DNA of 64,000 bases. Origin: an uncultured Pseudomonadales bacterium (GTDB taxonomy: Bacteria > Pseudomonadota > Gammaproteobacteria > Pseudomonadales > Azotimanducaceae). This document shows, one piece after another, positions 3,116-52,384 of the stretch. Below the pieces are notes generated by a model. The model had not been told where the DNA came from and did not search any database. It saw only the letters and a list, made by a program, of their open reading frames with translations. The stretch is taken from NCBI GenBank assembly GCA_958296025.1, contig OY282430.1:3648477-3712476 (forward strand), written 5' to 3'. Position 1 is the first letter of the stretch. Each line of letters begins with the position of its first letter. The position numbers were made by a program, and so were the translations under genes.

Positions 3116-3168
3116 ATTCCGCGCTTGGCGCGCAAGACGCACGGATGGTTCAGTGCAGGGAGAGCCGT

Positions 3169-4320: not shown

Positions 4321-4441
4321 CGGCTACCCCACAACTTCCGCTGGCCGCAGATGCCGTACGGGCCCGCACATACCAAGCGGCTGGCGCCCACCAAGCCAAT
4401 ATCCTTGCATTTGCCGCCCAGTTTCCCCTTCCCCCGCTGCG

Positions 4442-5342: not shown

Positions 5343-5475
5343 ACCGGCGTCCAAGCGTCCCCCACCAAGGGTGCCGGTTGATGTCGAACCAACGCACAAA
5401 CGGCTGCTACCGCAAAAAGGCGCGGCCAATGCATGGCAAGCGTCCACACCATTGTCTCAACAAAGGGCGCGGCCG

Positions 5476-6255
5476 ATGCTGAGCAAGCGCCTCATTGCCT
5501 GCCTGGATGTGCGCGACGGCAAGCTGGCCAAGAGCGTGCGCTTTGTTGACACCAAGGACATCGGCGACCCGGTGGAGAAGGCCCGCGCCTACTATGAGGA
5601 CGGGCTGGACGAGCTGGTGTTCTACGACATCACCGCCTCCAGCGACAAGCGTTCCATCATGCTGGATGTGGTGGAGGCGGTGGCCAAGGAGGTGTTCATC
5701 CCCCTGTCCGTGGGCGGCGGCGTCCGCTCCGTGGCCGACGCCACGGACCTGCGGCTGGCCGGGGCGGAGAAGATCAACGTCAACAGCGCGGCCGTACGGC
5801 GCCCGGCCTTGATAGCCGAATGCGCCGAGGCCCTCGGCAACCAAAACGTGGTGCTGTCCATGGACATTCGCCGGGTGGATGTCAGCCCCGCCTGCCCTTC
5901 GGGCTATGAGATGGTCATCAATGGCGGGCGCACCCCCATGGGCATCGACGCCCTGGCTTGGGCACGGGAAGGGGAGCGACTGGGCGCCGGGGAACTGGTG
6001 GTCAACGCCATCGACGCCGACGGCACCCGGGACGGATACGAACTCAAGCTGACAGCCCTGATCGCCGAGGCGGTGCGCATCCCGGTCATCGCCTCCGGCG
6101 GCGCCGGCAAGCCGGAGCACCTCAAGGAGGCGCTGACCGTCGGCAAGGCGGACGCCGCGCTGGTGGCGTCCATGGTCCACTATGGGGACTACTCGGTGAG
6201 CGAACTGAAGCGCTATCTGCACAGTCAGGGCGTTAAGATGCGCATGGCGTGGTGA
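5476..6255 (+). CDS. hisF: Imidazole glycerol phosphate synthase, cyclase subunit
   Basis: HisF is the (beta/alpha)8 cyclase that uses HisH-derived ammonia to make IGP and AICAR. From ATG 5476 the protein starts [11 protein letters not shown], with catalytic D11 in place, and D130 in VVLSMDI as the second general acid/base. Phosphate-binding loops SVGGGVRS (about 78-85) and [10 protein letters not shown] are present. An upstream in-frame extension to 5371 has no homology to the family and is part of the spacer. The spacer contains several degenerate copies of a (G/C)GGC(C/T)(G/A)ATG-like string, as if start regions had been copied, as also seen before hisH. The region 145-190 ([11 protein letters not shown]...NAIDADGT) is a variant of the usual TGGR...SxDRDGT. 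Confidence 0.92.
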
Positions 6256-35260: not shown

Positions 35261-36013
35261 CTACGCCATCCGCAACATCAGCACCTCTTCATCCAAACCT
35301 TGCCGTAGCGCCTCCAAGCGGGGGGAGTGCGCCGCCAACCGCGAGGCCGCCAAATGCGGCAGGCGATAGGGGAACAGGCTGGGGTGGCGTAGCAACCTAG
35401 TCAGCCCAGCGACGCCGCTTGGCAGCCCCTGCAGCAGCGCTTCCGCCAACCAAGCAACGACCTCGGCGTCTTCGATTTGCCGTTGCTCTCCCAGAGCGTA
35501 AACCCCTTTGGCGTCCGTGTCCGCCAGCGCACCCCAGTCGATAAACGAACGCAGGACACGCGCCGCGGCCCGCGATACGGTTTGTCGCTCCCCATAGCCT
35601 TCGCGGACGCGACGCTGAACTTGTGCAGCGGCAGCCGTGCTTTGCAGGCCCAGCAACCGGCCGGCGTGGGTGGCGACAGCGCCCCAAAACGGATAGGCGG
35701 CCAACGTCATGCCCCAATGGACGGCGTGCCGATGGTCCGCAGCCAACGTGGGCAGCATCGCCAAGCCGTCGTCGCGCAACGCTTCAAGGCCCGGCGGCAC
35801 CTTGCGCCAGATCTTCATCAGGATGGTGATGGTCTTCTGCCGATTGCCGCGCACGGCGCGGCTGTCGATGGACAGCTTTTCCGCCAGCATTTCGTTCAGG
35901 GCGTCTCGAATGGTGGCGCTGCCATTGCCGGCCAGAACCAAGTTGGCGGTCGCCTCCAGCCACTCCACGCGAAGGCGCTGGCTGATGCCTACTTGGCCGG
36001 CCCTTTCGTTCAT
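35261..36013 (-). CDS. brxA: BREX BrxA (DUF1819)
   Basis: This 250-residue protein starts MNERAGQVGISQRLRVEWLEATANLVLAG and contains NRQKTITILMKIWRKVP and AAYPFWGAVATHAGRLL, the helical pattern of BrxA (DUF1819). It overlaps pglZ by ATGA, and the pglZ-brxA order matches the end of BREX type 3 operons. BrxA proteins bind DNA and are part of the BREX set, which methylates host DNA and blocks phage replication. The longer ORF to 36163 only reads antisense of pglZ. Confidence 0.82.
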   Translation of the reverse strand: MNERAGQVGISQRLRVEWLEATANLVLAGNGSATIRDALNEMLAEKLSIDSRAVRGNRQKTITILMKIWRKVPPGLEALRDDGLAMLPTLAADHRHAVHWGMTLAAYPFWGAVATHAGRLLGLQSTAAAAQVQRRVREGYGERQTVSRAAARVLRSFIDWGALADTDAKGVYALGEQRQIEDAEVVAWLAEALLQGLPSGVAGLTRLLRHPSLFPYRLPHLAASRLAAHSPRLEALRQGLDEEVLMLRMA

Positions 36014-38001
36014 TTGCCCGGCACCACCTGCACGAAGGGCACGATGAGTTCCTCGATGCAGACGCCGCCGTGCGCCACGATGCGCTCGCCTTCCCGAACA
36101 AAGGCTGAGCGGCCCGGTGCGAGCAGCGGCAAGTAATTTGCCGGCAGGCCGTCGGGCGACCATTCCGTCGCGGCGGGAAAGCGCTCGGCAACGCCGCGGC
36201 GCAACCCCGCATCCGAGTACACACGCATCCGCTCACCGCGAATGTCCGCCACCGCGCCTTCGTCCGGGCGACCGCAGCCCGTGGCCTCAATGTTGCCGTG
36301 GTCGGAAGTCAGGTAAACGCGAAAGCCATGCTGGAGCAGCAGATCAAGAAGCGCCGCGCAATGTGCTTGCGCCGCCCACTGGCGCACTTGGTTGTGCATG
36401 CCGGCGGCGCCGAGCGTCATGCCGTGCATGATGCGGTCCACCTTGTCCACCACCAAGCCGATTGCGCGGATGTTGGGCTGCTCCGCCAACTCCGCCACCT
36501 CATCAAACGGGCCATCTCCCAAGCCCTTGGCGTAGGCGGCGCCCGGCACGTTCTGATCGGCCCAAAACCGCTGCCACAGCGCCTTCTCCTTATGGGTGCC
36601 GCGAATGCTCCCCGGAAAGAACAGCGGGGGATTGCCGGCGAAGATGGCCTGCCGGGAAACCGAAGTGACCGTGGGCACCCAAGCGAAGGCCGCGCCCTCC
36701 CGAAACCGCCAGCCAGGGCGTTGCCGGGCAAGCTCCTGCCGCATCACAACCCACTGATCCAGCGCCAACCCATCCATCACCACCAAGGCAACCCTTTCCA
36801 CGCCGGCACCGACCTGCCGCGCTAGAAAGCGGGGAATGTGGTGCAGCATCACCGGCGGATCCGGCGGCAGGTTGGCGAGGCCGGCGTAGCGGGCGACCAC
36901 CCAGCGGGCGAAGGCTGCGTCCATGCGGGTGCGCAAGGCATCGATTTCCCGCCGCTGATCCTCATTGGGCTTGCCGTTCGGATCGTGCTCCAGCACCGCA
37001 AGCTCCGCCCAAACTTTGGCGAAGCGGAACCAGTCGTCGTGCCGGACATCTGGTTCGGGCAGCGCGTCGGAGGCGACAGCCAGCAGCCGGCCCAGTCGAT
37101 CCGCTAGGCTTTCCCGTTGGTTCGAGCGAATCCCAATATTGAGCCATGTCTGGCTTAGCTCGTCTTTGCTTGGACGGGAGACAGGCCGCAGCAGCCCCTC
37201 CGCGAATAGGTTGTCCACATAGACGCGGATGTCGTCGTGATCGAAGGGCAGATGGGCAGGACCCGAGTATGCAAAGCGTCCATCCCCATCCGCGACGCTG
37301 AGCCTGCGGTCCACAGACCAATCAAGAAAGGTCGGCCAGCGCTCCTGCAGAAAGCCGAAGAACGCCTCCCGGTCCGGCACGATCCTGCTGAGGGGCCAAT
37401 GCTCGAAGCGGCCTTGGATGGCCTGAATGAACCGTTTGTCCAGCAGCGCCGGAACGCGCCGGCCGGGATAGTGGCGGCGCAGCAGAACGCCGAGCAAGTC
37501 CACTGGCGTTCGCACCAGACCGGAGACGATGCCGAAGACGTGCCGCAACACGAAGTCCTTGCTGGCAACCTTGCCCAAGACGCCTTTGAGGTTCAGGGCT
37601 TGGGCGTCGTAGAGGGCATCCAAATCCGCTGGTTCCAGTGCGGAAACGACGGCCTGGTTTAGTTTGGGGAACAAGTCGGCAAGGCCGAACGCCAGGTGGC
37701 GGGCGTTGGTTAGGATGTCGTAGGGCAGGGAATCCAGCGCAGCGGCGGGCGCCGGCACCAAGACCACCAAGCCGTTGCAGTCCGCCCGTGGCCCTTGGGC
37801 GCAGAGTTGCGATTCGTAGGCGTAGCGAAAGGCGATGGGATCCCCGAACCGGAGCAGGGAGAAGCCGCGCTCCCGCAGCCCGGCAAGGATGCGTTCGTCT
37901 TGGAGCAGGCCGTCCGGGTCCGCTGCGAGGGTGATTGGCGAGACGCCTAGAACGAACTCCCGAAGGATGCGCTCTTGCCAGCTAGTGGTGCTCATGGCCA
38001 T
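36010..38001 (-). CDS. pglZ: BREX-3 alkaline-phosphatase-fold protein PglZ
   Basis: PglZ belongs to the alkaline phosphatase superfamily and is the signature protein of BREX. With ATG 38001 as start the protein has about 663 residues. The metal-site elements are ALVVMDGLALDQW (D410), VPTVTSVSRQAIFAG (Thr at about 444-446), VDKVDRIMHG (about 517-526) and YLTSDHGN (D567, H568). ATG 37995 is an equally good start; the codons up to 38052 have no support. It lies about 6.8 kb from pglXI, separated by the inserted cassette, so it needs its own promoter. Confidence 0.88.
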   Translation of the reverse strand: MAMSTTSWQERILREFVLGVSPITLAADPDGLLQDERILAGLRERGFSLLRFGDPIAFRYAYESQLCAQGPRADCNGLVVLVPAPAAALDSLPYDILTNARHLAFGLADLFPKLNQAVVSALEPADLDALYDAQALNLKGVLGKVASKDFVLRHVFGIVSGLVRTPVDLLGVLLRRHYPGRRVPALLDKRFIQAIQGRFEHWPLSRIVPDREAFFGFLQERWPTFLDWSVDRRLSVADGDGRFAYSGPAHLPFDHDDIRVYVDNLFAEGLLRPVSRPSKDELSQTWLNIGIRSNQRESLADRLGRLLAVASDALPEPDVRHDDWFRFAKVWAELAVLEHDPNGKPNEDQRREIDALRTRMDAAFARWVVARYAGLANLPPDPPVMLHHIPRFLARQVGAGVERVALVVMDGLALDQWVVMRQELARQRPGWRFREGAAFAWVPTVTSVSRQAIFAGNPPLFFPGSIRGTHKEKALWQRFWADQNVPGAAYAKGLGDGPFDEVAELAEQPNIRAIGLVVDKVDRIMHGMTLGAAGMHNQVRQWAAQAHCAALLDLLLQHGFRVYLTSDHGNIEATGCGRPDEGAVADIRGERMRVYSDAGLRRGVAERFPAATEWSPDGLPANYLPLLAPGRSAFVREGERIVAHGGVCIEELIVPFVQVVPGK

Positions 38002-38069
38002 GCAATCACGGCTTGCGTTCTCACATGGGAATGTTGGACAACAGCCTGCCAACAGCGGCGACGTGGTGA

Positions 38070-38492: not shown

Positions 38493-39731
38493 TTGGCCTA
38501 CGAAAAGCCAAGAGATTCGCCGTATCCAAGGGCCTCGGACATGGCCAAGCTGGGCGGCATGGACCAGCAGCCACCCCAGGAAGGACCCGACGCGAAGGCG
38601 CTAAGGGAGGTCTCTCGCCCGAAGCACGACCCAGGCCAAAGACGCTTGTTCTCGCACAGGCGCATGGTTGCCGACCTGCTCCGCCTGCTGCCGGACGATC
38701 TGACCGAGGGTCTTGACCACGGCAGTTTGCGTCGCCTGCCGGCCGAGTACGTTGGCGACACCCTGCGCAGCCGCCGCAGCGACATGCCCTGGCGCATTGA
38801 CCTCCTGCCGCCCGGCCAGCCGCCATCCACCGGGCGGGGTGCAACGCCACCTAGAGCCGAGGAGGTTTCGGCAAAGAGGACTGCCCCACATGCCCCAGCC
38901 TTCTCACGCACCCCGGTGCCGGGACCTCCCGGAACCTGCCTGCTGCTGGCGGAGTTCCAGTCCACCGTGGACCCGCGCATGGCGGTAAGGATGCAGGAAT
39001 ACGCCACCATGCTGCTGGGGGACTTGGCCCGTGAGGGCAAGTTGCAGGGTCCGGGCGGCGGAGCGCCGCCCTTGCTGCCACTGGTGGTTTACAACGGCCG
39101 AAGGCCCTGGACGGCACCTTTGGATTTGGGCGGTGGGTCGGAGGGCTTGCCAAAGGCGTTGGCGGCTATGCAGCCGAAGTTTGAGTATGTGCTGCTGGAG
39201 GTGCGACGCTTCGCGCCGGACACCTTGGCGTTGGGGTTGCAGGGGAGCGCCGCCGGCGTAAACTTCGCCTTGGCGCAGTTCGCCTTGGAGAACGCTTCGG
39301 CTGAGGGCCTGCCGGCCGCCATGGCCGCCGCGGCCCGGCTGCTGAAGGCGGAGGGTGAGTTGAATTTGGCGGAGTCGTTCGCCATGTGGATTGAAGGTGT
39401 GCTGGAGCCTAGGTTGGGCGTGCGGCTGCCGTCCTTGATGGAACTGATGGAGGAGCCACCGATGCTGGCGGAGACATTGGATGAATGGGCCGAAGAAAAG
39501 TTTCGGCTGGGGAGAATTGAAGGCATGGCGCACGGCCGAGCCGAGGGCATGGAGCGAGAGAGGACTTTGCTGCTGCGCCAAGCACAGCGGCGGTTCGGTG
39601 CGGATGTCGCCAAGGCGCTGTCGGATTTGATTGCGGGCGTAGCGGACCCGGACCGTCTCGCCGAGGTGGGTGACTGGATTGTGGACTGCGCCACAGGCCA
39701 AGAATTGCTGGACCGAGCCAATCGTGTCTAA
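38493..39731 (+). CDS. Rpn-family recombination-promoting nuclease (Transposase_31 type)
   Basis: This protein of up to 412 residues has the PD-(D/E)XK pattern of Rpn/PF04754 proteins: a PKHD...FSHRRMVADLLR start (about 43-65), an active-site-like D in RSDMPWRIDLL (about 94-104), then CLLLAEFQSTVDPRMAVRMQEY (about 148-169), where E-F-Q replaces E-x-K. The C-terminal part (about 345-370) is a charged GRIEGMAHGRAEGMER repeat. E. coli Rpn proteins are DNA endonucleases that promote RecA-independent recombination. ATG 38541 or 38562 would be shorter starts. A 5'-truncated copy lies at 40710-41632. Confidence 0.75.
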   Translation: MAYEKPRDSPYPRASDMAKLGGMDQQPPQEGPDAKALREVSRPKHDPGQRRLFSHRRMVADLLRLLPDDLTEGLDHGSLRRLPAEYVGDTLRSRRSDMPWRIDLLPPGQPPSTGRGATPPRAEEVSAKRTAPHAPAFSRTPVPGPPGTCLLLAEFQSTVDPRMAVRMQEYATMLLGDLAREGKLQGPGGGAPPLLPLVVYNGRRPWTAPLDLGGGSEGLPKALAAMQPKFEYVLLEVRRFAPDTLALGLQGSAAGVNFALAQFALENASAEGLPAAMAAAARLLKAEGELNLAESFAMWIEGVLEPRLGVRLPSLMELMEEPPMLAETLDEWAEEKFRLGRIEGMAHGRAEGMERERTLLLRQAQRRFGADVAKALSDLIAGVADPDRLAEVGDWIVDCATGQELLDRANRV

Positions 39732-39795: not shown

Positions 39796-40215
39796 TCACC
39801 AAGGATTCACAACGGAGACGCCGGTTCTCCGAAAACCCCGCTCGTCGCGAGTGCATACGGCCAAGCCATGCACCCGCGCCGTTGCCGCAATGAATATGTC
39901 TGGATGACTGAAGACAATGCCCTGCTTCCGCCCCGACTCCACCATGCGCCGCCACTCGAGAATCACTTCCTCGTCAATGGCAAGAATCCTGCCGGCGAAC
40001 CAAAGCCGGAGTTTCTGGTCGAGCCAACGGTTCAATTCCTCCTGAAGCCCCGCGTCCTGCTGACGCTCGATGCCGTACCGGATCTCGGCAAGAGTAATCG
40101 TGCTCAGATAGAGACTATGCGGGGATTGCGCATCCGACCAAGCCTTCACTTTCGGATTGGGTTTGGTCTTGCGCAACTCGGACACGATATTGGTGTCCAC
40201 CAGATATCCGTTCAA
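39796..40215 (-). CDS. VapC/FitB-type PIN-domain toxin
   Basis: This is a 139-residue PIN-domain RNase. D8 lies in YLVDTNIVSEL, E44 in LAEIRYGIE, and the last acidic group is in HPDIFIAATARVHGLAVCTRDERGF. Translation starts at TTG 40215, which overlaps the antitoxin stop (TTGA). It lies between two copies of the Rpn-type gene. The target is probably tRNA or another RNA, as for other VapC proteins. Confidence 0.87.
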   Translation of the reverse strand: MNGYLVDTNIVSELRKTKPNPKVKAWSDAQSPHSLYLSTITLAEIRYGIERQQDAGLQEELNRWLDQKLRLWFAGRILAIDEEVILEWRRMVESGRKQGIVFSHPDIFIAATARVHGLAVCTRDERGFRRTGVSVVNPW

Positions 40216-40517
40216 ATATCCACCTCGCGCACCGGACCTTGGATGGACTCACGCCCGAACTCCAGCCGATTCAAGGGCGACCGAGACAAAAGATCGTGCA
40301 GGGTGGGTGCGCCGCTTGGCACCTGGAGCCGATCAAAGTCGTCTGTTGAGACCACAACGACCGCATTGCGGCCATTCACGGTGACCCGTTGCGGCTGTCC
40401 CGCCGCGGCGAGGCGCACGACCTTGCTTAGCTTGGCCTTCGCTTCCCCCAACTTCCAAACGGGCAGCGGCGCATGGGGAGGGGCCAGTGGAACAGGACTT
40501 GCCATGACAAAAACCAC
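40212..40517 (-). CDS. Phd/YefM-type antitoxin
   Basis: This protein of about 97-101 residues contains WKLGEAKAKLSKVVRLAAAGQPQRVTVNGRNAVVVVSTDDFDRL, the Phd/YefM DNA-binding fold, and a C-terminal tail (HDLLSRSPL ... VREVDI) that should neutralise the PIN toxin. The likely start is ATG 40505. It precedes and overlaps the toxin gene, the normal order for autoregulated vapBC. Confidence 0.87.
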   Translation of the reverse strand: MVFVMASPVPLAPPHAPLPVWKLGEAKAKLSKVVRLAAAGQPQRVTVNGRNAVVVVSTDDFDRLQVPSGAPTLHDLLSRSPLNRLEFGRESIQGPVREVDI

Positions 40518-40709: not shown

Positions 40710-41632
40710 CTAGAGCCGAGGGGGTTTCGGCGAAGGGGACTGCCCCGCATGCCCCAGCCTCCTCACGCACCCCGGTGCCGGGACCTCCCGGAACCTGCCT
40801 GCTGCTGGCGGAGTTCCAGTCCACGGTGGACCCGCGCATGGCGGTAAGGATGCAGGAATACGCCGCCATGCTGCTGGGAGACTTGGCCCGTGAGGGCAAG
40901 GTGCAGGGTCCGGGCGGCGGACCGCCGCCCTTGCTGCCGCTGGTGGTTTACAACGGCCGAAGGCCCTGGACGGCGCCTTTGGATTTGGGCGGTGGGTCGG
41001 AGGGCCTGCCAAAGGCGTTGGCGGCCATGCAGCCAAAGTTCGAGTATGCGCTGCTGGAGGTGCGACGCTTCGCGCCGGACGCCTTGGCGTTGGGGTTGCA
41101 GGGGAGCGCCGCCGGCGTAAACTTCGCCTTGGCGCAGTTTGCCTTGGAGAACGCTTCGGCTGAGGGCCTGCCGGCCGCCATGGCCGCCGCGGCCCGGCTG
41201 CTGAAGGCGGAGGGTGAGTTGAATTTGGCGGAGTCGTTCGCCATGTGGATTGAAGGTGTGCTGGAGCCTAGGTTGGACGTGCGGCTGCCGTCCTTGATGG
41301 AACTGATGGAGGAGCCACCGATGCTGGCGGAGACATTGGATGAATGGGCCGAAGAGAAGTTTCGGCTGGGGCGAATTGAAGGCATGGCGCACGGCCGGGC
41401 CGAGGGCATGGAGCGCGGCCGGGCCGAAGGCACGGAGCGAGAGAGGGCTTTGCTGCTCCGCCTGGCACAGCGGCGGTTCGGTGCGGATGTCGCCAAAGCG
41501 CTGTCGGATTTGATTGGGGGCGCGGCGGACCCGGACCGTCTCGCCGAGGTGGGTGACTGGATTGTGGACTGCACCACGGACCAAGAACTGCTGGATCGGG
41601 CCGGCGGTGCTTCGTCGGCGACGAGGACCTGA
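40710..41632 (+). pseudogene. 5'-truncated second copy of the Rpn-type nuclease gene
   Basis: From about 40710 the DNA is nearly identical to 38848-39720. The first about 115 codons of the other copy, including the D-motif, are missing. An in-frame TAG precedes the homologous part and the first start is GTG 40775, giving at most 285 residues. It has an extra GRAEGTER unit of eight residues compared with copy 1 and a different C-terminal end. It is probably inactive as a nuclease because half of the active site is lost. Confidence 0.75.
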
Positions 41633-41727: not shown

Positions 41728-42885
41728 ATGGCGATCAGTGAATCCGCCGCAAGCAGCCAACAAGTCGTCCACTGCGACTTGGAGCACCTCCTGCTCGACT
41801 CGCAAAACCCTCGGTTCGGCCTGCAAGAGGCCAGTTCAAGTCAAGCACAAATACTCGACCATATCGTGGACAAATTTGGGGTGAACGATGTCCTGAGCTC
41901 CCTCGCCGTCAATGGGTATTTTGAGGCTGAACCGGTGGTCGGCAGGAGAATGCCGAATTCTGCAAACATTGTTGTTGTGGAGGGGAATAGGCGTCTAGCA
42001 GCTTGCCTAATGCTCACCCAAGACCCAAGGGCTGCCAATCAGGCCACACATTCCGAGGATTTCCGTAAAATCTGGAAAACGCATGGTTATCCATCGGTAA
42101 ATCCATTACCTACCATCACCTTCAATCCCGATAAAGAAGAAAAAACAATTCTTTCCTACTTGGGCGTCCGCCATATCGCCTCAGCACAACCGTGGGACTC
42201 TTATGCAAAGGCTGCTTGGGTAGCACAAGTAGTAAAGAAGAACAACATTAGCATTGGCGAGGTCGCCCAGATGATCGGCGACCGCCACCGTACAGTAAAC
42301 AAGATGCTCGAAGGATATTATCTCATCAGGCAACTTACAGAAACTGGACGCTTCGACCAACAAAATAGCGTCCGCCGAGGTCGGGGCAGTGTTACAGATT
42401 ACCCGTTCTCTTGGGTATATACAATCCTCGGCTACACATCTGTCCGTAACTTCCTAGAGCTCGGTAGTGGCGAGGCAGATATTCCACCCTTAAAGGAAAA
42501 AAATTTGGACAACGCCGGGCTAGTAGTCCGCTGCATGTTCGGCGACAAGTCCAAGGGCCGCAACGCCGCCATTGACGACTCAAGGCAACTCGGCGCGTTG
42601 GCCGAAGCCCTTGCAGATAAGGAGAAGGTCAGGTTACTCAAACAAGGAGAAGTGCTTGCCAACATCAACTTAATGACACAGCCTCTAGACCAACGGCTTG
42701 CCGATGGTTTAGCAACCATAGGCAATGAACTGCGGGACTTAATCAGTCGTCTGTCCGAGCAGCCAATTTCTTCCAACAGTGCGGCGGAGCTCCTGCCCCG
42801 ATCTACCAAAAACCGCCGTCTCACTAACGATCTTGACAAACGATTGAAAGAAATTGCATTCGATGATGATGAAGATGACGATTAG
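41728..42885 (+). CDS. ParB-like (ParB/Srx domain) protein in defence cassette
   Basis: This 385-residue protein has an N-terminal ParB/sulfiredoxin-fold domain: CDLEHLLLDSQNPRFG (16-31), LAVNGYFEAEPVVG, and NIVVVEGNRRLAACLML (about 80-96), the E-G-x-R-R core. A helical middle contains SIGEVAQMIGDRHRTVNKMLEG, an HTH-like segment. The C-terminus ends in a run of Asp/Glu. ATG 41728 has AAGGA upstream. It is followed after nine bases by a nuclease-like gene and then a convergent C5 methyltransferase. ParB-fold proteins in phage and defence loci can act as nucleases or modification components; the role here is inferred only. Confidence 0.75.
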   Translation: MAISESAASSQQVVHCDLEHLLLDSQNPRFGLQEASSSQAQILDHIVDKFGVNDVLSSLAVNGYFEAEPVVGRRMPNSANIVVVEGNRRLAACLMLTQDPRAANQATHSEDFRKIWKTHGYPSVNPLPTITFNPDKEEKTILSYLGVRHIASAQPWDSYAKAAWVAQVVKKNNISIGEVAQMIGDRHRTVNKMLEGYYLIRQLTETGRFDQQNSVRRGRGSVTDYPFSWVYTILGYTSVRNFLELGSGEADIPPLKEKNLDNAGLVVRCMFGDKSKGRNAAIDDSRQLGALAEALADKEKVRLLKQGEVLANINLMTQPLDQRLADGLATIGNELRDLISRLSEQPISSNSAAELLPRSTKNRRLTNDLDKRLKEIAFDDDEDDD

Positions 42886-42894
42886 CTATACCTC

Positions 42895-43815
42895 ATGCCG
42901 CTAGCACAACGTCATGCCGAAGAGGCTGACCATGTTGAGCACGAAGCGCTCACATACGGAGCGTCCGTAGTAGATATCGGGCTCTACGGCGATAGGATAT
43001 CAGGCGTACTCGATGACTTTGAACTCGAGAATGCACACTCGCACGTTCGGGAGTCGTGGCACCAATCAGACATCGCAACGGACGATTCCGTTAGCAACAT
43101 AGGGATAGAAATTGAGCGCCGAATCCGTATTCTAAAGTCGGCCTATCCCTTCAAGCTAAGCGGCAGCACGTTGCGATACGTTCCCGGCAATATGAAAATC
43201 TATGAGTTCATGCTATCAGTTTGCTGTTCACCCAGTCTCACCAAAGGAGATTTTGCATGCCTTCCTCGTACATTCGAGCGCGTGGCCAAAGTGTTGGTTA
43301 CTATGTATTTTGGAGACTATGCACGGGGATGGCATACTGGATGGCCCAGAGATGATGGTACCTCATTTCAGAAGGCCGTAGAAGAGATACATCGTCACAC
43401 CGGAGAATGGCGATGGAATCCTCAGACAGAACTCGACCCCAACTCGGTCCGCGACGAAGGCTGTGATTTTGTCGTCTGGTTGGCTCCCAGCGATGATCGA
43501 AAGGTTGGCGGCCTGTTTGTACTGGGGCAGTGCGCCTGCGGCAATAACTGGCAATCCAAGTACGACGACCTAAGCATAAAGGACTTGCAGCGGTGGTTCC
43601 ATCCTCTATCTTTAGTGGACCCGGTTAGAAGCTTCGCTACGCCACGCTACATGCCCGACGAAATGCTTTCCAAGGCAAGCCCTCGGGCGGGGCTATTATT
43701 CGATCGAGCTCGGTTAACTTCAATAGCTTATAGAACGAAGGGAAAAGCATTCGACAAGGAAATGCTAAAACTTATGGATGATGCAACCCAGTTAGTTCGA
43801 ACTCGCCTACCATAA
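42895..43815 (+). CDS. Putative PD-(D/E)XK-type restriction nuclease
   Basis: This 306-residue protein belongs to no family I can name with certainty. Residues 187-223 read as a nuclease core: D187-E-G-C-D191-F-V-V-W, ten residues, then G-G-L-F-V-L-G-Q212-C-A-C-G-N-N-W, then K. This fits D-(x)n-(D/E/Q)-x-(K/C) restriction-like folds in which Gln replaces the acidic residue. The gene sits directly after the ParB-like gene and its end overlaps the convergent dcm gene by nine bases. Together with the methyltransferase this suggests the restriction half of a modification-dependent or modification-protected system. Confidence 0.5.
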   Translation: MPLAQRHAEEADHVEHEALTYGASVVDIGLYGDRISGVLDDFELENAHSHVRESWHQSDIATDDSVSNIGIEIERRIRILKSAYPFKLSGSTLRYVPGNMKIYEFMLSVCCSPSLTKGDFACLPRTFERVAKVLVTMYFGDYARGWHTGWPRDDGTSFQKAVEEIHRHTGEWRWNPQTELDPNSVRDEGCDFVVWLAPSDDRKVGGLFVLGQCACGNNWQSKYDDLSIKDLQRWFHPLSLVDPVRSFATPRYMPDEMLSKASPRAGLLFDRARLTSIAYRTKGKAFDKEMLKLMDDATQLVRTRLP

Positions 43816-44778
43816 GCCATTGAGCGACTCGCCGATATGCATGAATAGCGGTGGTGGTACGGCGTTTCCGATTGCCTTGTATTTTTCCCGTATTGCGCCA
43901 GTGTCCGGAAATTTCCAGTCGTGTCGAAATCCCTGCAAACGCGCCGCTTCCCGGTAGGAGAAGCGGCGTGGTTCTCCATCCGTAGCCCAATCCCACTTGT
44001 CCGGTCCAATTTTATGTAGTCGCGGACTTATGGGATGGAGCGGCATGTGCCTAGCATTGCTAACTATTGTTTTGCTCGGCTCCGCCCATTCGCACCGTCT
44101 ATTTCTTGACATGTAATACCAGTGAAATTTCTGCTCGAGGAATTCACCACTAGGCCATGTCGGCAATCCTTGCAGCGCGTCCTTAACAGTGGCGAATTTC
44201 GCACTTGATTCGCCGGTGTGTGTCGGTGCTGGGAAGGAGTATTGAAATTCTAAATCGCTCCTTATCCCGACTATGAATATCCGTCGTCTTTGCTGGGGAA
44301 CGCCGTAATTTGCTGCGTTCAGAATCCTGTAATCCACAGAATAGCCCGCCATCCGGAACCGGATGATCTGGTTATTGAGCAAGTGAATAAAGTCACTGCG
44401 CTGCATCCCCGAGACATTTTCAACCACAAACGCCCTCGGTTTTATCTGGCGAAGTGCTCTATCGAATTGCCGATATAGGTAGTTGACCTTGCGACCGGAA
44501 ATCCTCGCCCCTCCTTGGCTAAACCCCTGGCACGGATAACATCCCACGAGAAGGTCAGCTACGGGGAACGATTTGATTGTGGCAATGTCTTCGCATCTGT
44601 ATTCGGTATTGGGAAGATTTGCAAGGTAGAGATCTTTTGCATAGGGTGAAAGGTCGTTGGCGAACACGATTTCATAGTTGGCATCGATCAAGCCTGCGTC
44701 CGACCCCCCGCATCCAGTAAACAGCGACACAACCTTGGGTCTCTTCCTACCCCGAACAACATCGTGTTTTGACGCCAT
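43807..44778 (-). CDS. DNA (cytosine-5-)-methyltransferase
   Basis: This is a 323-residue C5 methyltransferase. Motif I is LFTGCGGSDAGL (19-30), motif IV is GCYPCQGFSQGG with catalytic C83, motif VI is VVENVSG (119-125), motif VIII is QQRRRIFIVGI, and motifs IX-X are REAARLQGF and KAIGNAVPPPLF. The target-recognition region between VIII and IX is short. It starts 37 bases after the pglXI stop on the same strand, so it is probably transcribed with the BREX genes, where the helicase brxHII would be expected. It faces the nuclease-like ORF tail to tail. Confidence 0.92.
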   Translation of the reverse strand: MASKHDVVRGRKRPKVVSLFTGCGGSDAGLIDANYEIVFANDLSPYAKDLYLANLPNTEYRCEDIATIKSFPVADLLVGCYPCQGFSQGGARISGRKVNYLYRQFDRALRQIKPRAFVVENVSGMQRSDFIHLLNNQIIRFRMAGYSVDYRILNAANYGVPQQRRRIFIVGIRSDLEFQYSFPAPTHTGESSAKFATVKDALQGLPTWPSGEFLEQKFHWYYMSRNRRCEWAEPSKTIVSNARHMPLHPISPRLHKIGPDKWDWATDGEPRRFSYREAARLQGFRHDWKFPDTGAIREKYKAIGNAVPPPLFMHIGESLNGLW

Positions 44779-44815: not shown

Positions 44816-47611
44816 TCACCGGGACTGTCCGCCACGGACTACTGCTTGGTCGAACCACATGAGTAGCTTGGGGTCCTCTTGAAGGATACGCTCTGGGATC
44901 TTTTGCGCAACAGCGACTATTGTGGCGTAGTCACTGGCTTGCCAAGCGCGGCGGAAGCCGGCGCGGACTGCTTCTAGGCGGAACACCTTGAGGCGGCGCA
45001 GGTCGGATTTCTGGTACTCGGCGAACTCGCGGAGCAGGGTGCGTTCGCGGACCTTTTCTAGGTCGCTAGCTTTGTGGGGGTCGGGGACGTACCAGCGGCC
45101 TTTGGCTTTCACGCGGAGCGTGAGGGCGTCCTTTGCTAGCTTGCGGAGGTCCTTGAAGTTGGTTGAGAGGTAGGCATGGAGTTGGGGCGGGACTTCACCC
45201 CTGCCGTTGTAGTGGAGGAAGTTTTCCTTTAGCAGCGTGGACAACTCCAGCATCCTCTCGTGTTTGGCCCAACCCCCTAACTCCCTGATGTAGTGCGGGT
45301 GTATGCCCTGATAGGTCTGCGGCTTCCGGTCTAGTTGCTGGCGGAGCCATTGAATGGCGGTTTCCTCGTCCTTGACGAAAAGCTCTAGTTGGATGACCTC
45401 CTTCGCCGTCGCCCGTTTGCGGTCGTACTCCACCACCTGATCAGGGAGGAAGTACATGCGGTCGCGTTCAGCGAAGCGCTGGCGCAAGCCCTGGTAGAAC
45501 TCTGTCGCCGATAGGGGAACGGTGGCACCGCGAAGAACGTGGAAGGCGACCATACGATCGAACAGAAGGTAGTCTTGCCGCTCGGATACTACCTCCACCT
45601 TGTCCGCCTTGGAGACGAACACCGGTAGTTGGCGCAGGTGCGTGCGGACGAAATCCCACGCGCCATCTTCCGTTCCCGCCGCGAGCTTGAACCTGTCCTC
45701 TAGGCCGCCATTGGGCTTGTAGGCGGAGATCACAAGATCTTGCTTGACGGCCTGGGATGCCTTGATTTGGTTGAAGGTCCCATGCTTCTTGTCTAAAACC
45801 CGCACGTCGGCTACGACAAATCCGGCGGAAAGCAAGCTTTCTTGAATGGCGTTCCAGATGACATTTCTCGAGTTGTGGAATACGACCGTCATCCACCGGC
45901 CTGGTTTCAGAACGCGGCGGTATTCCTCGAAACACTGCCTCATCATCTCTTGGTAACTGGTCACGTCCTTTTGCTGAGTCCGGCTAACCACCGCTTCGGA
46001 TTCGGCCTTCGTGAAGACTCTGAGGAAAGACTCGTTCACGAAGTTGAGCTCGCTATAGGCTAGGTTGTCTCCGAATGGCGGATCGGTGAACACATAATCT
46101 ACGGAGTCCTGGGGAGTCGATGAGGTAGAGCAGTCGGTAGTAGTTGCGGCGGTCCAATGCTGTCCAGATGCGACCGGCTGGAGCGCCGATGCTAGGCGTT
46201 TCAACTTGCCGCTCAGAATGTATGATGGCGTCACTTCAGCGTGCTGAGAACCAATTTGGATGCGGCCCGCCATGTACTGGTTCACCTGCGAATAGTGCAA
46301 AGGCCCATACCTATTCTGCAGCGACATTCCGAGAATGGCCTGTTCAGCAAAAAACATGAGCGCATTTTTCTGGCGGCCGCTCGATGGCCGCGTAGCTCTT
46401 TGCCACAGAGCCGACAGTGCGTACCTTGCTCTAGGAAGGAACAAGTGATGAACATGCGTAAAGGACGACACGCCTCGTCGCCACTGGTCGCCCCAAACTA
46501 GCACGTCGTCCGGTTTGTGCATCATCCGGTCAAACGGGAGGTCTATAGGCCGAGGCAGATGGTCTATCGTATCGAGCCTAGCCAAGTCGTCCGACGTCGC
46601 CTCTTTAGAATACTTCTGTCCGTTGACGCTGTAGTTGATGAATACCGGCACTCGCTTCGTTGTTGGCACCATAGTGTCTATCGCGTCGTCGTGGTCGGAG
46701 AGGATGACACGGTTGAGGCGCTTCTTGTTCAGCGTCGCGGCGCAAGTCGGGCAAGGAAACGTGCTCCGTATTCGTCCCGTGTCTTGATTGAGCGCTTCTC
46801 GGGTGTAGATGATCTCTCCGATACACTCCGGGCAAGTAAACACCTCGCTCCACACCGTGTAGTTGATCCGCCCCTTCGTCTTCCCATCCGTATGCAGCGT
46901 CTCATACATCCAGCCGATCTCTTCCTCCACCTCGTCTAGGAGCTTCTGGGCCGCCTGGACGAAGGCATCCACGTCGAACGGGATGTTGTAGTTGGCGGCA
47001 ATGAACGTTGCCGCTGGCGAGAGGTCGCCGAGGATCGCCCGGCGCGCCCCCCACTTCGGCGGGTCGCGTCCCTCCTTCTCCCATTGCTGTTCCAATTCCA
47101 TGCGGTATTCAGGCGGCGCGGTGCCGCACCATTGCGCGGCTACGCCGGTCATTCCCGAACCGCAGAATCCGTCCAACACGATGTCGCCCGGCTCCGTGTA
47201 GTGGAGGATGGAGGGCACGATGGCCTTGTGGGGCACCTTGGTGTGGTAGCCGTGCGCCTTGTATAGGGGGTCGGTCTTGCCCACGCTCACATCCACCGCG
47301 AAAGGCTCCCGGCGGTACGGCTCGTCGGGGTCGTAGGGCTTGCCGTGGTGCTTTACGAACTCGGTGAGGAATGGGTTGGGGCAGGCGGTGTAGTAGGGCG
47401 GGTCGGAAAGGCGCAGAATGTCCTCGTTCTCGCCGATGGGGAAGTCGTGGCGCTGCCGCAGTTCCGGGAGCTTCTCCTTCAGCCGGGCGAGGAAGTGGGC
47501 GCGGCGGGCGTCGTCAGACTCGAACGTCATGCCCAAGCACTCCACTGGCCCGGCATCACTTGGCCCAACGGTGTTGGGCAGTAGGTTGCCCTTCGGGCCA
47601 GTCTTAGCCAT
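44816..47611 (-). CDS. pglXI: BREX-3 DNA methyltransferase PglXI (COG1743-like with Zn ribbon)
   Basis: This 931-residue methyltransferase has DPPYY (70-74), the SAM motif LDGFCGSGMTG (146-156), a zinc ribbon C260-x2-C263 / C287-x2-C290 inside the domain, and TDPPFGDN (509-516), the arrangement of COG1743-type proteins used as PglX in BREX type 3. The long C-terminal half is probably the DNA-recognition part. In BREX, PglX methylates a non-palindromic host motif so that self DNA is spared. It overlaps the upstream repeat/winged-helix ORF by eight bases. Length and motifs are intact. Confidence 0.88.
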   Translation of the reverse strand: MAKTGPKGNLLPNTVGPSDAGPVECLGMTFESDDARRAHFLARLKEKLPELRQRHDFPIGENEDILRLSDPPYYTACPNPFLTEFVKHHGKPYDPDEPYRREPFAVDVSVGKTDPLYKAHGYHTKVPHKAIVPSILHYTEPGDIVLDGFCGSGMTGVAAQWCGTAPPEYRMELEQQWEKEGRDPPKWGARRAILGDLSPAATFIAANYNIPFDVDAFVQAAQKLLDEVEEEIGWMYETLHTDGKTKGRINYTVWSEVFTCPECIGEIIYTREALNQDTGRIRSTFPCPTCAATLNKKRLNRVILSDHDDAIDTMVPTTKRVPVFINYSVNGQKYSKEATSDDLARLDTIDHLPRPIDLPFDRMMHKPDDVLVWGDQWRRGVSSFTHVHHLFLPRARYALSALWQRATRPSSGRQKNALMFFAEQAILGMSLQNRYGPLHYSQVNQYMAGRIQIGSQHAEVTPSYILSGKLKRLASALQPVASGQHWTAATTTDCSTSSTPQDSVDYVFTDPPFGDNLAYSELNFVNESFLRVFTKAESEAVVSRTQQKDVTSYQEMMRQCFEEYRRVLKPGRWMTVVFHNSRNVIWNAIQESLLSAGFVVADVRVLDKKHGTFNQIKASQAVKQDLVISAYKPNGGLEDRFKLAAGTEDGAWDFVRTHLRQLPVFVSKADKVEVVSERQDYLLFDRMVAFHVLRGATVPLSATEFYQGLRQRFAERDRMYFLPDQVVEYDRKRATAKEVIQLELFVKDEETAIQWLRQQLDRKPQTYQGIHPHYIRELGGWAKHERMLELSTLLKENFLHYNGRGEVPPQLHAYLSTNFKDLRKLAKDALTLRVKAKGRWYVPDPHKASDLEKVRERTLLREFAEYQKSDLRRLKVFRLEAVRAGFRRAWQASDYATIVAVAQKIPERILQEDPKLLMWFDQAVVRGGQSR

Positions 47612-48140
47612 GCGCCTTGCCCTCTTGCTCGGCCTGCAGGTGCAGCGCTCTTAGCTCAAGCCCTGCTTCGGTAAGAATGTAGCGCTGGCCAGGCACTCTC
47701 GGCTTATCAGGATTCGTCATAGTGATCAAACCATCATGGATCAACGGGTCCAGATGACTCTTCTTAAAGTGGCCACGGTTGGCGACAGCCAGTTTGTCCA
47801 TAATTTCGGCCAGCAGGCGTGGCACGTCGCAATAGGCCAAGACCTGCCGTTGGGTGGCCGAGAGCACGGTAAGTAGCTTGGCCGGGTGAACATGGCCCCG
47901 ATGTTCAGTGGGCGTCGGGCTTGGCCCATGCGGTACATGTGCAGTGGACATGTCCACTTGGTCAGTGACCGAGTCGCCATGCCTATCGCGCACTTGGTCA
48001 CTGACTAAGTCCACTGTTTCCGTCGCTGCTTGATCACTATTCCGCGGAGACGGAGCATGGTCAGTGCTCATGTTGGCCTGTTCATGTCCATGTTCAGTGA
48101 ACATGTCGGTCGGCCTATGCGCTACTTGTGCAGTGAACAT
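47604..48140 (-). CDS. Repeat-rich winged-helix protein between brxC and pglXI
   Basis: This 178-residue ORF has two parts. Residues 1-90 are low-complexity, built from units of the form (F/S/V)-(T/S)-(A/D/E)-(Q/H)-V, spaced mostly 11-12 residues apart (FTAQV, FTEHG, STDHA, NSDQA, VSDQV, VTDQV, STAHV, PTEHR). Residues 92-170 look like a winged helix: LSATQRQVLAYCDVPRLLAEIMDKLAV ... FKKSHLDPLIHDGLITMTNPDKPR ... YILTEAGLELRAL. The DNA of the repeats is palindromic (see the repeat entry). The gene lies between brxC and pglXI, overlaps pglXI by eight bases, and is not a standard BREX-3 component. A regulator is the simplest guess. Confidence 0.6.
   Translation of the reverse strand: MFTAQVAHRPTDMFTEHGHEQANMSTDHAPSPRNSDQAATETVDLVSDQVRDRHGDSVTDQVDMSTAHVPHGPSPTPTEHRGHVHPAKLLTVLSATQRQVLAYCDVPRLLAEIMDKLAVANRGHFKKSHLDPLIHDGLITMTNPDKPRVPGQRYILTEAGLELRALHLQAEQEGKAHG
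47901..48140. repeat. About eight degenerate 15-bp palindromes with codon-phased spacing
   Basis: Copies start near 47901, 47937, 47958, 47994, 48030 (weak), 48057, 48090 and 48126. The best is ATGTTCAGTGAACAT at 48090-48104, a perfect inverted repeat about a central G. The others keep CA(G/C)TG in the centre with matching arms, for example TTGGTCACTGACTAA at 47994. Spacings are 36, 21, 36, 36, 27, 33 and 36, all multiples of three. The array lies wholly inside the 5' half of the 47604-48140 gene. Confidence 0.8.
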
Positions 48141-48164
48141 GTCAATGCGTCCTGCGTCACGCCG

Positions 48165-51100
48165 TCACTCCACCACAATCCGCGCCTTGCCCGGTGCCTT
48201 GCCCTTCACCAACTCGTCCACATAGGCCCCGAAGCGCTGCTTTACTTCTTCCGGCGTCGCAGGGCAGCCGCCGGACAGCAGGGCGGCGCGGAGATTCTCG
48301 GTTGTCACGGAGACCTTCTCAAGGCCGGACAGCGCATCCTGCAGCGCTTGCACGAAACCATCGGTCACCTCGTTCGGCAGCTTGCCGGCGCGGATGAACT
48401 CCGCCGCCAGCTTCGCGGCTTCCGGTTCCAGCAACTTCAGGCTTTCCTTGGCCGTTGGGTCGTCCAGATTCGCCAGCAGCGTTCGCGTCCAAGCGTCCGT
48501 CAAGGCGTCCAGTTCGTCGTCCAAGGCGTTCAGGGCAGCCTCCGCCGAGGCGACCGGCTTCGCGCCAGACCTGAAGCCGCAATGCGGGCACACCGGTGCG
48601 GTTCGCACTTCCTGCTCCGTCAGCGCGAAGCAGCTCGTGAGATCGACCAGGCGGTGCAGGCAGTCGTCAAGATGCTGCCGGGGCATCAAGTCGATGGCTG
48701 CTAGGCGCTCTAGAATGCTCAAGCGCTGGTCGCCCAAGAGCCGTGCCTTGCGCCTGTTTCCATCCACGCCCAACCGCGCCTTGGCGTGCTGCGACAGGTA
48801 GTCCCGCACATACTCGGCCTTCAGTTCCTCAAGCCGGCGCATCGTCCGCTGGCGAAAGGCAGCACCGCCGCGCACCTTCGGGTCGGTGAGCTGGCCGAGA
48901 ATTTGGTTTCTGGCCGCTTTTACCTTGGTTGTCCAGTCCTGTTCCGCAGGCAGCCCCGCTTCGGCGGTGGAAAGATAGGACGCCGTGGCGCCGAGGTCGG
49001 CGCATAGGCCGGCCAACCCCTGCACTTCCGCCAGCGCCTTGAATCCGGTGCGCTGCGCCTTCACCTGCTCGGCTTGGTGGCGGAAGTTCTTGAGCTTGCC
49101 CGGCGAGTTGTAGGCTTGCAGGGATTCCAAGAAGGTTTTGGCGCCATCGATCCGGCCCCGCAGTTCTTGGGTTTCGTCCTCCGAAAGCAAGTTCCCGCCC
49201 CAAAAGATCAAGCCGTCACGCAAATGCTGCTGGGCGCGAACTAGCTGCTCCACCGCCTCGCCCACCGCCCTTTGCATCTGCTGCACCGGCTCGTCGTTGC
49301 CTTGGGTGATGAGCTGCGCCATGCCGGGTGCCAAGCCAAGCAACTCGAACAGGGCGTTCAAGGCCGGCAGGTTCCATTCCTTCGGGCGTTCGATGTGCTT
49401 GAAGCCGGTCAGTTCGCCAAGGGAGGCAGCCGCTAGCTGCGGCAGGCTTACCGCATCGAACTTGCGGCCAGGAATGGCCAGCACCAAGTGCCCGGAATAG
49501 ACCAGCGCCGCCAACACCACGGCCACCCACTCCGGCTCCAGGCGCAGACCGGATTCGTCCATGTACTCCACGCCAAGAAGGTCGTGAATCAATTCGGGGC
49601 GGTTCAGCACTTGGCCGTGGCCTTTCTTCTCCATCAAATCCAGGATGTGCCGTGCGTACTTGGAGTTTTCCGGCACCAAGCGGTCGCCATCGAGCAATTC
49701 CAGCGCATCGAGCACGGCAGCGGCTTGGCGGGTGCGATGCTGGCCGGCGATGGTGCGCAATGCGGCCTGAGCCGCTTGCGCACGGTTGTTGCCGGTGATG
49801 TGTACGGAGAACGCGGGATACTCCGGCGCTTGGTCCGCGAAGTGCGGGGCTAGGCAGATGCCGGCGATGGTGTTGACCAAGTCGCGCAAGTTGATGCGCT
49901 CCTCCGCAGGGGTGCCGGAAAGCTCCCGAATGGACGGGCTGCCCTTCGCCCATTCGAGCAGTGCCTTGGCGCGGCCCTGATAGGTCACTTGGAACGCATC
50001 CGCCATGTGCGTCCGTAGCCACGACACCAGCTTGCGCAAGGATTCCGCAGCCTTTTCCTCATAGGTGCGCTTGGCGTGGCCAGAGGATGTGGAGGCCAAG
50101 TCCAGGGCGGCGGCGTAAGCCTTGAGCGTGGCGCGGAAATCGCCGTCCATGCCGGCGAAGCGGAAGAACAACTCGTCCGCCTTCTTCTCATCCTTGAAGC
50201 GGGGCGGCTCGAAGGGTTGCAGGAAGTACAGGTAGAAGTCCCGGGGCGGCACGGCGGTGGAGCGTTCGTTGGGCGCCCCGAAGAACAGGTAGCCGTTGCG
50301 CGGCGCCTTGCGCTCCAACCAAGTTAGTTCGTGCTCCCAAATCTTGAAGCCGGACACATAGGTTTCATCCACGCACTCCATCTGCCGCTTGAGGGCTTCG
50401 TAGTAGTAGCGGTCCAGCTTGGATGCGTCCAGGCTCTCGGCGCGTTGCTCGATCAGGGCGTCGAAGTCGTCGGTTTTCCGCAAATCCAGGTAGAACTGGC
50501 CGTTATGCGGGTTCGAAGAGATGAACTGGCCGCTAACGGTGCGGTGGATTTCGCGCAGCACCGTCTCCACCTGGGTAAGCAGATCGTCCGCTGGATCGCC
50601 CCCTAGGTCCTCGACGCCAGCTTGGTATAGGCACAGGCCGTCCCGCAGTTCCTTGGCGCTAGCGCCAAGGGGCGAGTGGATGTCGCCTTGGGTCAGGCGA
50701 TGCACGGAAAGAGCGTGGATGATCCGCAGCGCCATCGGCTTGTAGGCTGGGCGGGTGAATGCCTGCCGCACCCGCGCCTCCAAGACCTCGCTGCAATCGA
50801 TTACCGCCCGGATGTCCGGCGCGGCGCGGAAAGCCGGATTGCCGGTCAGGTTTGCCCAATAGCTGTCGTAGGCGATCAGGCCCGGATGGTCGGTGGGCAG
50901 GTCGTCGTCGAGCAGTCGCCTCATGGTGTCGGATAGGGTGCGCAGGGCTTCGCGCTTTTCCGCCGCGGCCACCTGCTCGAAGGTGTCGATGTACTGCGGA
51001 TGCACCGGGAACAGGCGAACGTACTCGTCCAGGCCCTCGTTCATGCGCTCGTAGAACTTGCCGAAGGGGGTGAGATAGCCGCGTATCTTCGCCTGCTGCT

Positions 51101-51893
51101 CCGCGGTTTTGCGCAGCAGGCGCTCCGCCACCACGAACTTCACGTCGCTCTTGGCGATGACGATCTGCGCGAAGCGGTCCTGGACGCGGCGGACAGCGTC
51201 CGCGGCGAAGCGGAAGCGCGGGCTGTCGAATATGGCTTCCTGAACGCCGGCCATGAAGCGCAGCCGCAGGTCCTTGCAGGCCTCGCCAATCTCACGCAGG
51301 AAGTTCAAGTCTAGGATGAGTTCCGTATCCTTGCGGGTGCGCAGGTAGTCCAGCAGTTCGTCCACCACCAGCAGCAGGCCTTGGTCCGGGAAGGCACCGT
51401 GGAACGCCGCCATCATTTCCTCTAAGCAGCGTTTGTTGGTCACCACTTGGTCGGCATTGGGAAACCTGTAGGCCACGCCCATGCGCACCAAGCCCGCTTC
51501 CAACTCGCCGACCAGAATGTCCCGCAAGGCCATGGTGGAAGCGCCAATTTCCGTGCGCACCACTTGGAACTGGCCGGCGATCTGCGCTGTGGCCTGCGCC
51601 GCTTGGGGGTGACCGAGGCTGTCCGCTAGGTCCGCGTTCTCCGCCAGCGCCGAAATCACGGACATGAGGTGCGACTTGCCGGTGCCGTAGTTGCCCACCA
51701 CCAGCAGCCCCTTGTTGTCCGCCGGCCGGTCGAACTGAAGGTGCGGGATGGCGAGGCTGGCGAGGCGCTCCGCCATCTCGTCGGAGACGACATAGGTTTC
51801 CACCAGCCGACGGGCATCCTCGGCGCGGTCCGCATTGCGCAGTTGCACCACGGACTCGATGGGTTGGAAGTGAATCAGCTCGCGGTATTTCAT
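48165..51893 (-). CDS. brxC: BREX-3 large P-loop ATPase BrxC (DUF6079)
   Basis: This 1242-residue protein starts at ATG 51893 with [18 protein letters not shown]. Walker A is [15 protein letters not shown] (66-80), a Walker-B-like segment is [18 protein letters not shown] (about 157-174), and a C-terminal CPHC pair lies in [10 protein letters not shown] (about 1105). It matches the DUF6079/BrxC ATPase of BREX type 3. It overlaps brxF by ATGA. BrxC ATPases are thought to assemble with PglX and PglZ on DNA. The ORF can be extended to 52013, but that part is the antisense/overlap of brxF. Confidence 0.9.
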
Positions 51894-52384
51894 CGTGCTT
51901 CGCCGCCCGCTTGGAGAGGCACCACCAAGAGATCGCCGACGGAATATTGGCGGTGTTCGGGATGCCCCGGAGCAGCGTAGCGCAGTTTGCCATCTTCGAG
52001 TACGCCCGTCCACGCGGCCACCACGGTCTTGTTGCGCGACAGGCCCTGCAGCAAGCTCAGGGGCTCCTGCTTTAGGGTGGCGTCGAACAGCAATTCGATG
52101 TTGTCCAGCAGCACGAGGCCACCGCCTTCATCAAGGGTTTCCACCAATTGCTCTAGGAAGGGCCGCAGTTGTAAGGGCCGCTGACTTACGGTCAATTCGA
52201 GCATTCGACGCGACAGATCCAAGCCCAGGTTCGCAAGAGGAGCGCCGGTGCGTTCGCGCACGGCTTCAAGCGCGTTGGTTTTGCCGGTGCCGGCCGGCCC
52301 CACCACCACCACCAGCCGGTGGTAAAGGGACGCCGCCTGCTGGACAGCGGCGGCGACGGCATCGGCTGCTCGGTCAGACTGCAA
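51890..52384 (-). CDS. brxF: BREX-3 P-loop protein BrxF
   Basis: This is a 164-residue small ATPase with Walker [17 protein letters not shown] (27-42), Walker [16 protein letters not shown] (about 90-104) and [13 protein letters not shown], as in BrxF, the first gene of BREX type 3 operons. No ATG is available and the start seems to be TTG 52384. It overlaps brxC by ATGA. The operon promoter should lie in the short gap (52385-52419) or inside the small gene upstream. Confidence 0.85.

Follow-up and report, generated by a model that had tools for sequence, protein, structure and literature searches.

In at least 1,017 taxa, Schlafen RNase-kinase-winged helix-turn-helix (wHTH) genes are reported to be linked to the core loci of bacteriophage exclusion (BREX) and BREX-related systems (PMC12839542). 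Another winged-helix regulator gene linked to BREX, brxR, has coding DNA that was proposed to act in cis. Here we describe a 178-aa open reading frame (ORF) between brxC and pglXI in a BREX type 3 cluster of an uncultured Pseudomonadales bacterium, which carries in its 5′ half a row of palindromes kept at the level of the DNA and ends in a predicted winged helix. The window, that is the whole stretch of DNA analysed, comprises 64,000 nt (assembly GCA_958296025.1, contig OY282430.1, positions 3,648,477 to 3,712,476), and coordinates below are positions in it.

The domain order of the BREX-associated Schlafen RNase-kinase-wHTH proteins recurs in relatives of this ORF at L037, L042 and L056 (L and G numbers are our labels for loci or contigs and for genomes), and the window ORF has the C-terminal wHTH next to BREX core genes, without the Schlafen and ATPase parts. 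An initial annotation of the window had set the ORF outside the canonical BREX-3 set; this is correct, yet the parent gene recurs as an accessory in this slot and has already been reported for BREX and BREX-related systems (PMC12839542). In the main text of that report, to which our string search was confined, 'palindrom' has a single occurrence, concerning methylation sites, and 'tandem repeat' has none. A literature search that covered few subscription papers and no preprints returned nothing on BREX type 3 with Schlafen, nor on repeat strings like TPQVTPQV. BrxR is a WYL protein with its site upstream of the transcription start, whereas the sites proposed here lie in coding sequence. Palindromes in frame within coding sequence are also a feature of the Rickettsia palindromic elements; those are dispersed through a genome, whereas here the sites are confined to one locus.

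Eight co-phased palindromes precede a predicted winged helix

The ORF is on the minus strand and its 5′ half therefore lies at high coordinates. This half contains eight motifs, centred at 48133, 48097, 48064, 48037, 48001, 47965, 47944 and 47908, with every centre at the second base of a codon for Thr or Ser and with spacings, by rising coordinate, of 36/21/36/36/27/33/36. The spacings are exactly those of the initial annotation, whose common phase and count of about eight are confirmed; six motifs are good (5–7 of 7 pairs within ±7) and two are poor. The unit of the array is a 19-bp palindrome with the consensus ACWTGKYCASTGRMCAWGT, usually 33–36 bp from the next.

47604–48140, minus strand: 178-aa ORF, disordered linker (residues 1–90, palindrome array) plus winged helix (ORF list, AlphaFold2)
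48124–48142, minus strand: motif 1, ACATGTTCACTGCACAAGT, 5/7 pairs, contains the start codon
48088–48106, minus strand: motif 2, ACATGTTCACTGAACATGG, 7/7 pairs, best site
48055–48073, minus strand: motif 3, ACATGAGCACTGACCATGC, 5/7 pairs
48028–48046, minus strand: motif 4, 3/7 pairs, poor
47992–48010, minus strand: motif 5, ACTTAGTCAGTGACCAAGT, 6/7 pairs
47956–47974, minus strand: motif 6, ACTCGGTCACTGACCAAGT, 6/7 pairs
47935–47953, minus strand: motif 7, ACATGTCCACTGCACATGT, 6/7 pairs
47899–47917, minus strand: motif 8, 4/7 pairs, weak
47670–47810, minus strand: Fic-like_C (PF21247) match, within the MarR-like winged-helix domain at 47607–47870

Over the seven sites whose whole 15 bp lie inside the ORF, the arms pair at 37 of 49 positions, compared with 22.2 (standard deviation (sd) 2.7) in synonymous recodings that use the codon usage of brxC and pglXI; none of 5,000 recodings reached 37. 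The first ~260 nt hold 10 odd palindromes with at least 5/7 pairs, seven of them in one codon phase.

Residues 1–90, which the array encodes, have mean AlphaFold2 confidence scores (predicted local distance difference test, pLDDT) of 46–59 per block of ten, and residues 91–170 have mean scores of 92–98 per block. Together with a PF21247 match over residues 111–157 (E=1e-11; 45 bits against a cut-off of 27; profile positions 18–64 of 64), this bears out the earlier view that the protein ends in a winged helix. The predicted structure has a MarR-type winged-helix fold, and fold comparison groups it with the Fic family protein 4rgl and with MarR/RosR regulators. In a profile search at E 1, the C-terminal domain of 4rgl (E 6.9e-20) was the one sequence relative with a solved structure; it belongs to a Fic protein, for which we know of no DNA-level repeat. 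The ORF differs from the MarR/RosR family in that a Pfam search at E 1 returns no MarR family for it and in that its sites form an in-gene array. Pfam also found neither an SLFN_AlbA_2 nor an HATPase_c_4 domain in it, and PADLOC has no model for it. By tblastn the ORF aligned to 12 plasmid and 6 phage records, in its winged-helix half only, and the linker consensus matched no phage or plasmid.

Relatives keep the DNA letters as well as the peptide

A direct protein scan of genome contigs with the ORF as query found no relative, and we therefore used a PglXI alignment as the query of a second scan. The 80 PglXI loci compared here are the best 80 of 268 matches, joined by further loci, two plasmid loci and L007; many are metagenome assemblies. 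L039 and L054 are apparently one contig (of equal length, 22,367), L005 overlaps L037 and L006 overlaps L038, and each was counted once.

In homologues the array reads LSTAQAGHETA and LVTDQADVPGAR, a peptide repeat of 11–12 residues. For a cross-locus pairing test, motifs in the linkers ahead of the winged helix were picked by peptide alone ([LMI]x[TS]x[QH]), at 13 loci that include L007 and L120, neither of which is a slot gene; L044, L052, L085, L096, L117, frames of fewer than 100 aa and loci lacking the peptide pattern were set aside. The unique motifs pair at 179 positions, compared with 111.1 (sd 5.5) under a synonymous null, and none of 2,000 draws reached the observed value. At 504 places where the same peptide pattern occurs in other ORFs of at least 300 aa at the same loci, we found a mean of 2.88 pairs against 2.86 expected.

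Comparison of shared residues in 12 array loci indicated that codons agree in 1606 of 1915 cases (84%) within the motif and in 988 of 2481 (40%) within the winged helix; winged-helix rates reweighted to the residue mix of the motif predict 39%. In the motif Asp is GAC at two positions (17/17 and 16/16), Thr is ACT (31/32), the Ala following Thr is GCA (14/14) and Gln is CAA (31/31), while Leu is TTG 19 times, TTA 6 times, CTA once and CTG never; third positions outside the linker, in contrast, are 50–83% G+C in the array genes. The arms covary, with G-C for T-A at ±4 (Fisher 8e-8) and A-T for T-A at ±7 (0.005), and 0 of 20,000 arm shuffles attained the observed pairing. Between loci the motifs of the 36-bp units are 75% identical and the spacers 38%; since the spacers diverge and the motifs do not, the whole unit was not simply copied recently.

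Relatives across several phyla thus keep the DNA letters as well as the peptide, and the element very probably acts at the level of DNA or RNA, not just as a peptide. The initial annotation had offered an operator cluster, a protein repeat of about 12 residues or a sequence-tracking signal, and had named a kept peptide with randomised codons as the mark of the second. Randomised codons are not what we find, and its readings are supported in part: the array is a peptide repeat of 11–12 residues and a DNA-level element at once.

The slot between brxC and pglXI

The slot often holds a frame of 610–822 aa in relatives. This winged helix is found at 27 slot places, the window included, as 20 full-length genes, two short ones and five fragments or genes cut by a contig end (L044, L052, L085, L096 and L117). 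The full-length relatives that we scanned (L037, L042 and L056) have SLFN_AlbA_2, HATPase_c_4, a repeat linker and the same winged helix, and the short forms, the window ORF and L043, have linker and winged helix alone. Four further full-length genes sit downstream of pglXI (L060, L070, L100 and L120). The slot is variable: L039 has an AAA-type ATPase plus a second gene, L040 a two-gene pair with another AlbA-type protein, and L041 lacks a clear ORF on the same strand. A PglXI tree (36 rows) makes the full-length L042 the sister of the window (SH-aLRT 100) and places L043 outside that group. The tree suggests that, if the slot gene is inherited with pglXI, the reduced form of linker plus winged helix probably arose at least twice.

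Counting the window, 23 slot relatives have a linker that can be read; 11 of them have the palindrome and 12 do not (L044, L059, L073, L086, L091, L099, L101, L102, L113, L116, L122 and L123), so that homologues lacking the array, which the initial annotation had counted as evidence against its proposal, make up a part of the family. At L056:8927-9625 the array is expanded to 19 strict matches with 17 of 18 gaps at 36 bp, an extreme growth of the linker. Gln in the linker repeats is CAA in 85 of 91 codons (26 genes), compared with 258 of 735 (35%) elsewhere in the same genes, and with array loci excluded in 32 of 38, compared with 155 of 475, linker counts being inflated by tandem copying.

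SLFN_AlbA_2 and HATPase_c_4 are present also in L007 (genome G089), a Schlafen-type gene outside BREX that carries the array; the gene next to it, on the other strand, we take to be JetD-like, and no BREX genes follow. A role of the motif as a BREX methylation site was considered and dropped, since L007 carries it outside BREX.

Motifs outside the linker

A strict scan of 1.63 Mb found the motif in linker arrays and in few other places, among them a stray match at L038:10629. The genome of the window has five sites with one mismatch or none, all at this ORF, and three others with two mismatches. Of the 30 sites with at most one mismatch listed for 13 genomes or records that have arrays or relatives, 28 are in arrays. 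A two-site pattern was matched in 4 of 299 genomes of the phylum (the window's own, G089, G097 and G290, the last a simple 12-bp repeat), which is a lower bound because the pattern misses the known arrays of G010 and G026. Another pattern matched single sites in seven genomes without arrays; it misses the window's own array, and its counts are likewise lower bounds.

Two loci have motifs directly upstream of pglXI. At L054 (Magnetococcales), where the slot has no AlbA-winged-helix gene, two motifs stand 35 bp apart between the preceding gene and the pglXI start, in different frames, and the second is a perfect 19-bp palindrome; a 155-aa reverse-strand ORF over the pair is taken as chance. A different perfect palindrome, CGTCTATACACGCCGTGTATAGACG, lies just upstream of the pair (L054:9899-9923), and a 46-codon frame with an LSTGQ motif overlaps the end of the preceding gene. 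At L089 the 118-nt gap before pglXI is filled by three degenerate motifs (5/7 pairs each), 21 and 36 bp apart, which can be read in a short open frame and may be a coding remnant. The PglXI tree places L039, apparently the same contig as L054, with L037 and L038, whose array is in the gene; the intergenic copies of L054 may thus descend from a lost gene. In a 93-nt brxC-pglXI gap without a slot gene, L084:704 is a degenerate motif (position weight matrix (PWM) score 15.3) that may be chance.

The viral contig L143 encodes, at 3112-5826 on the minus strand, an unrelated 904-aa protein with a zeta-toxin-like stretch and, near its N-terminus, two in-frame units 36 bp apart (DDLSTAQVAHTAPNLSTEQ), which may be a captured linker or a decoy; one of its spacers shares 11 of 17 positions with the first spacer of the window. 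When viral sequences were scanned for exact 17-mers, 11, 8 and 2 stretches matched, with L143 the sole array among them, and a two-site scan at exactly 36 bp gave 11 stretches that, beyond L143, are simple or unrelated repeats. Eight viral contigs (L138-L142 and L144-L146) carry a single exact 17-mer in one unrelated protein and no array, which is probably chance.

The BREX type 3 cluster of the window

One cluster in the window holds brxF, brxC (DUF6079), pglXI and pglZ, the set that marks BREX type 3 (PADLOC matches), with the ORF following brxC in the order brxF, brxC, ORF, pglXI and, further on, pglZ.

51890–52384, minus strand: brxF (PADLOC PDLC02496, 1.8e-55)
48165–51893, minus strand: brxC (DUF6079) (PADLOC PDLC02482, E 0), start codon set where the Pfam match begins; the ORF as called mechanically extends to 52013
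44816–47611, minus strand: pglXI methyltransferase (PADLOC PDLC02541, E 0)
36010–38052, minus strand: pglZ (Pfam and PADLOC matches)

The end of brxC is 24 nt ahead of the ORF start, and the ORF end overlaps the pglXI start by 8 nt. BrxHII is present in 77% of type 3 BREX according to PMC12839542; a tblastn search of the window with one BrxHII query, from L122, gave no match at E 1e-3. Between pglXI and pglZ we note a DruM2-like C5-methyltransferase (43807-44778), an ORF matching PD-Lambda-5_A models (41728-42885), and, judged by eye, two mutually similar ORFs (38493-39731 and 40775-41632) plus a pair of small genes resembling a PIN toxin and antitoxin (39796-40517). Elsewhere in the window, a palindrome-dense stretch near 25750 is GC-rich and coding-like.

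Discussion

The array is conserved at the level of the DNA, its arms covary, good sites are confined to the locus and the ORF has a predicted winged-helix fold. A 19-bp palindrome array beside a MarR-like winged helix, with no other good site in the genome, suggests self-recognition in cis, and binding by the encoded protein itself is plausible on the strength of this predicted fold and this distribution. We give about an even chance to the array being a self-contained cis operator cluster, set in the codons of the linker, with the encoded winged helix as its likeliest ligand and autoregulation of the stretch from the ORF to pglXI as its function. Probably dimeric, the winged helix would bind to several of the palindromes in its own gene, and the docked protein would autoregulate the part of the BREX-3 operon leading into pglXI or hold itself on its own locus. 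The window ORF would then be a reduced form, operators and reader only, to which most slot relatives add a Schlafen AlbA_2 and an ATPase-like domain. The initial annotation had seen the place ahead of the methyltransferase as suited to controlling modification; the intergenic motifs upstream of pglXI at two loci support this, though control of pglXI cannot account for everything, since L007 has the array outside BREX.

Several further observations weigh against an operator cluster or limit the case for it. Likeness to the MarR fold does not establish DNA binding, and the short forms could be decaying genes. The 12 slot relatives without the palindrome have TEQV/TPQV-type or other linkers; L120 fits the peptide pattern yet pairs at 3/7, with no excess; L038 on its own is weak in the synonymous-codon test (p 0.15); and AIRSTHA of L076 departs from the covariation pattern. 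The codon-agreement and covariation tests used loci chosen for carrying the array, and neither these nor the synonymous-codon test allow for the relatedness of the loci. A PWM scan of 1.61 Mb gave two matches outside arrays, one of them L084:704, compared with seven in a reversed control, and thus offers no evidence of operators at promoters. A recently lost linker may have left the intergenic copies as remnants, although the near-perfect state of those at L054 argues for use. G097 has an intergenic pair and no PF21247 match, which in a genome 84% complete may be an assembly gap, and L143 has its motifs in an unrelated protein; the winged helix thus does not accompany the motif everywhere.

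The same palindromes might instead act in the polycistronic message, as CACUG-loop hairpins, possibly bound by AlbA_2 in the forms that have it, that would control the stability or translation of pglXI or the ORF. Compared with shuffles, the array's sense RNA folds better (z -3.1), as would that of any row of palindromes, and the CACTG orientation is kept by 4 of 5 copies in the two loci with intergenic motifs. We consider an RNA element unlikely. A-C accounts for 28 and G-U for 7 of the mismatched pairs in 40 instances, selected for at least 5/7 pairs and fixed central bases so that the pair counts are not independent evidence of pairing; this excess indicates no wobble preference and makes RNA hairpins less likely. 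TTG/CAA is kept though CTG/CAG pairs equally, so that the letters matter and not pairing alone. Moreover, the short forms lack AlbA_2, and the array has no Rfam match. That another factor, a host regulator or another BREX component, binds the array in place of the encoded winged helix would account for the motifs in G097 and in the viral gene; we hold this equally unlikely, as elsewhere the motif tracks this gene family across phyla, also outside BREX in L007, and the gene family itself is the common element.

A selfish or mobile palindromic repeat akin to the Rickettsia palindromic elements, spreading in frame through disordered linkers with no function for the host gene, would fit the two units in the unrelated viral protein, with their spacer likeness to the window, and the 19 strict matches of L056. 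The repeat is not dispersed, however, as the confinement of good sites to the ORF in its own genome and to arrays elsewhere indicates, and its spacers diverge where its motifs do not; we regard this explanation as quite unlikely. Finally, the linkers of this family are tandem repeats in any case (TPQV, TEQV, TDQV), and the palindromes could be a by-product of recently copied codons in a repeat that serves the protein alone. This account, already disfavoured, is very unlikely in view of the codon constancy between phyla, the covariation of the arms and the intergenic copies.

Beyond the operator cluster of this subfamily, we propose tentatively, and as rather unlikely, a general rule that the linkers of PF21247 proteins are dual-coded, as a disordered peptide and as an array of half-sites (CAAGT) for their own winged helix. 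The half-sites would come as 12-bp direct repeats (TPQV, TEQV, TDQV) or, in this subfamily, as 19-bp palindromes, and the effector would sit on its own gene. Full-length Schlafen forms could be leashed there, the RNase being released once an attacking phage breaks or occupies the locus; the two copies on the viral contig L143 would then act as decoys. The CAA bias of linker Gln outside the array loci fits this rule and does not prove it.

If the reading as an operator cluster is true, one stretch of DNA would serve as both protein linker and operator array and would be kept as such across several phyla, in genes whose winged-helix part has its synonymous positions scrambled. This would explain the odd conserved repeats in these defence proteins and would provide BREX type 3 with a cis-regulatory element next to its methyltransferase, as well as a way to test how a Schlafen-type effector stays quiet.

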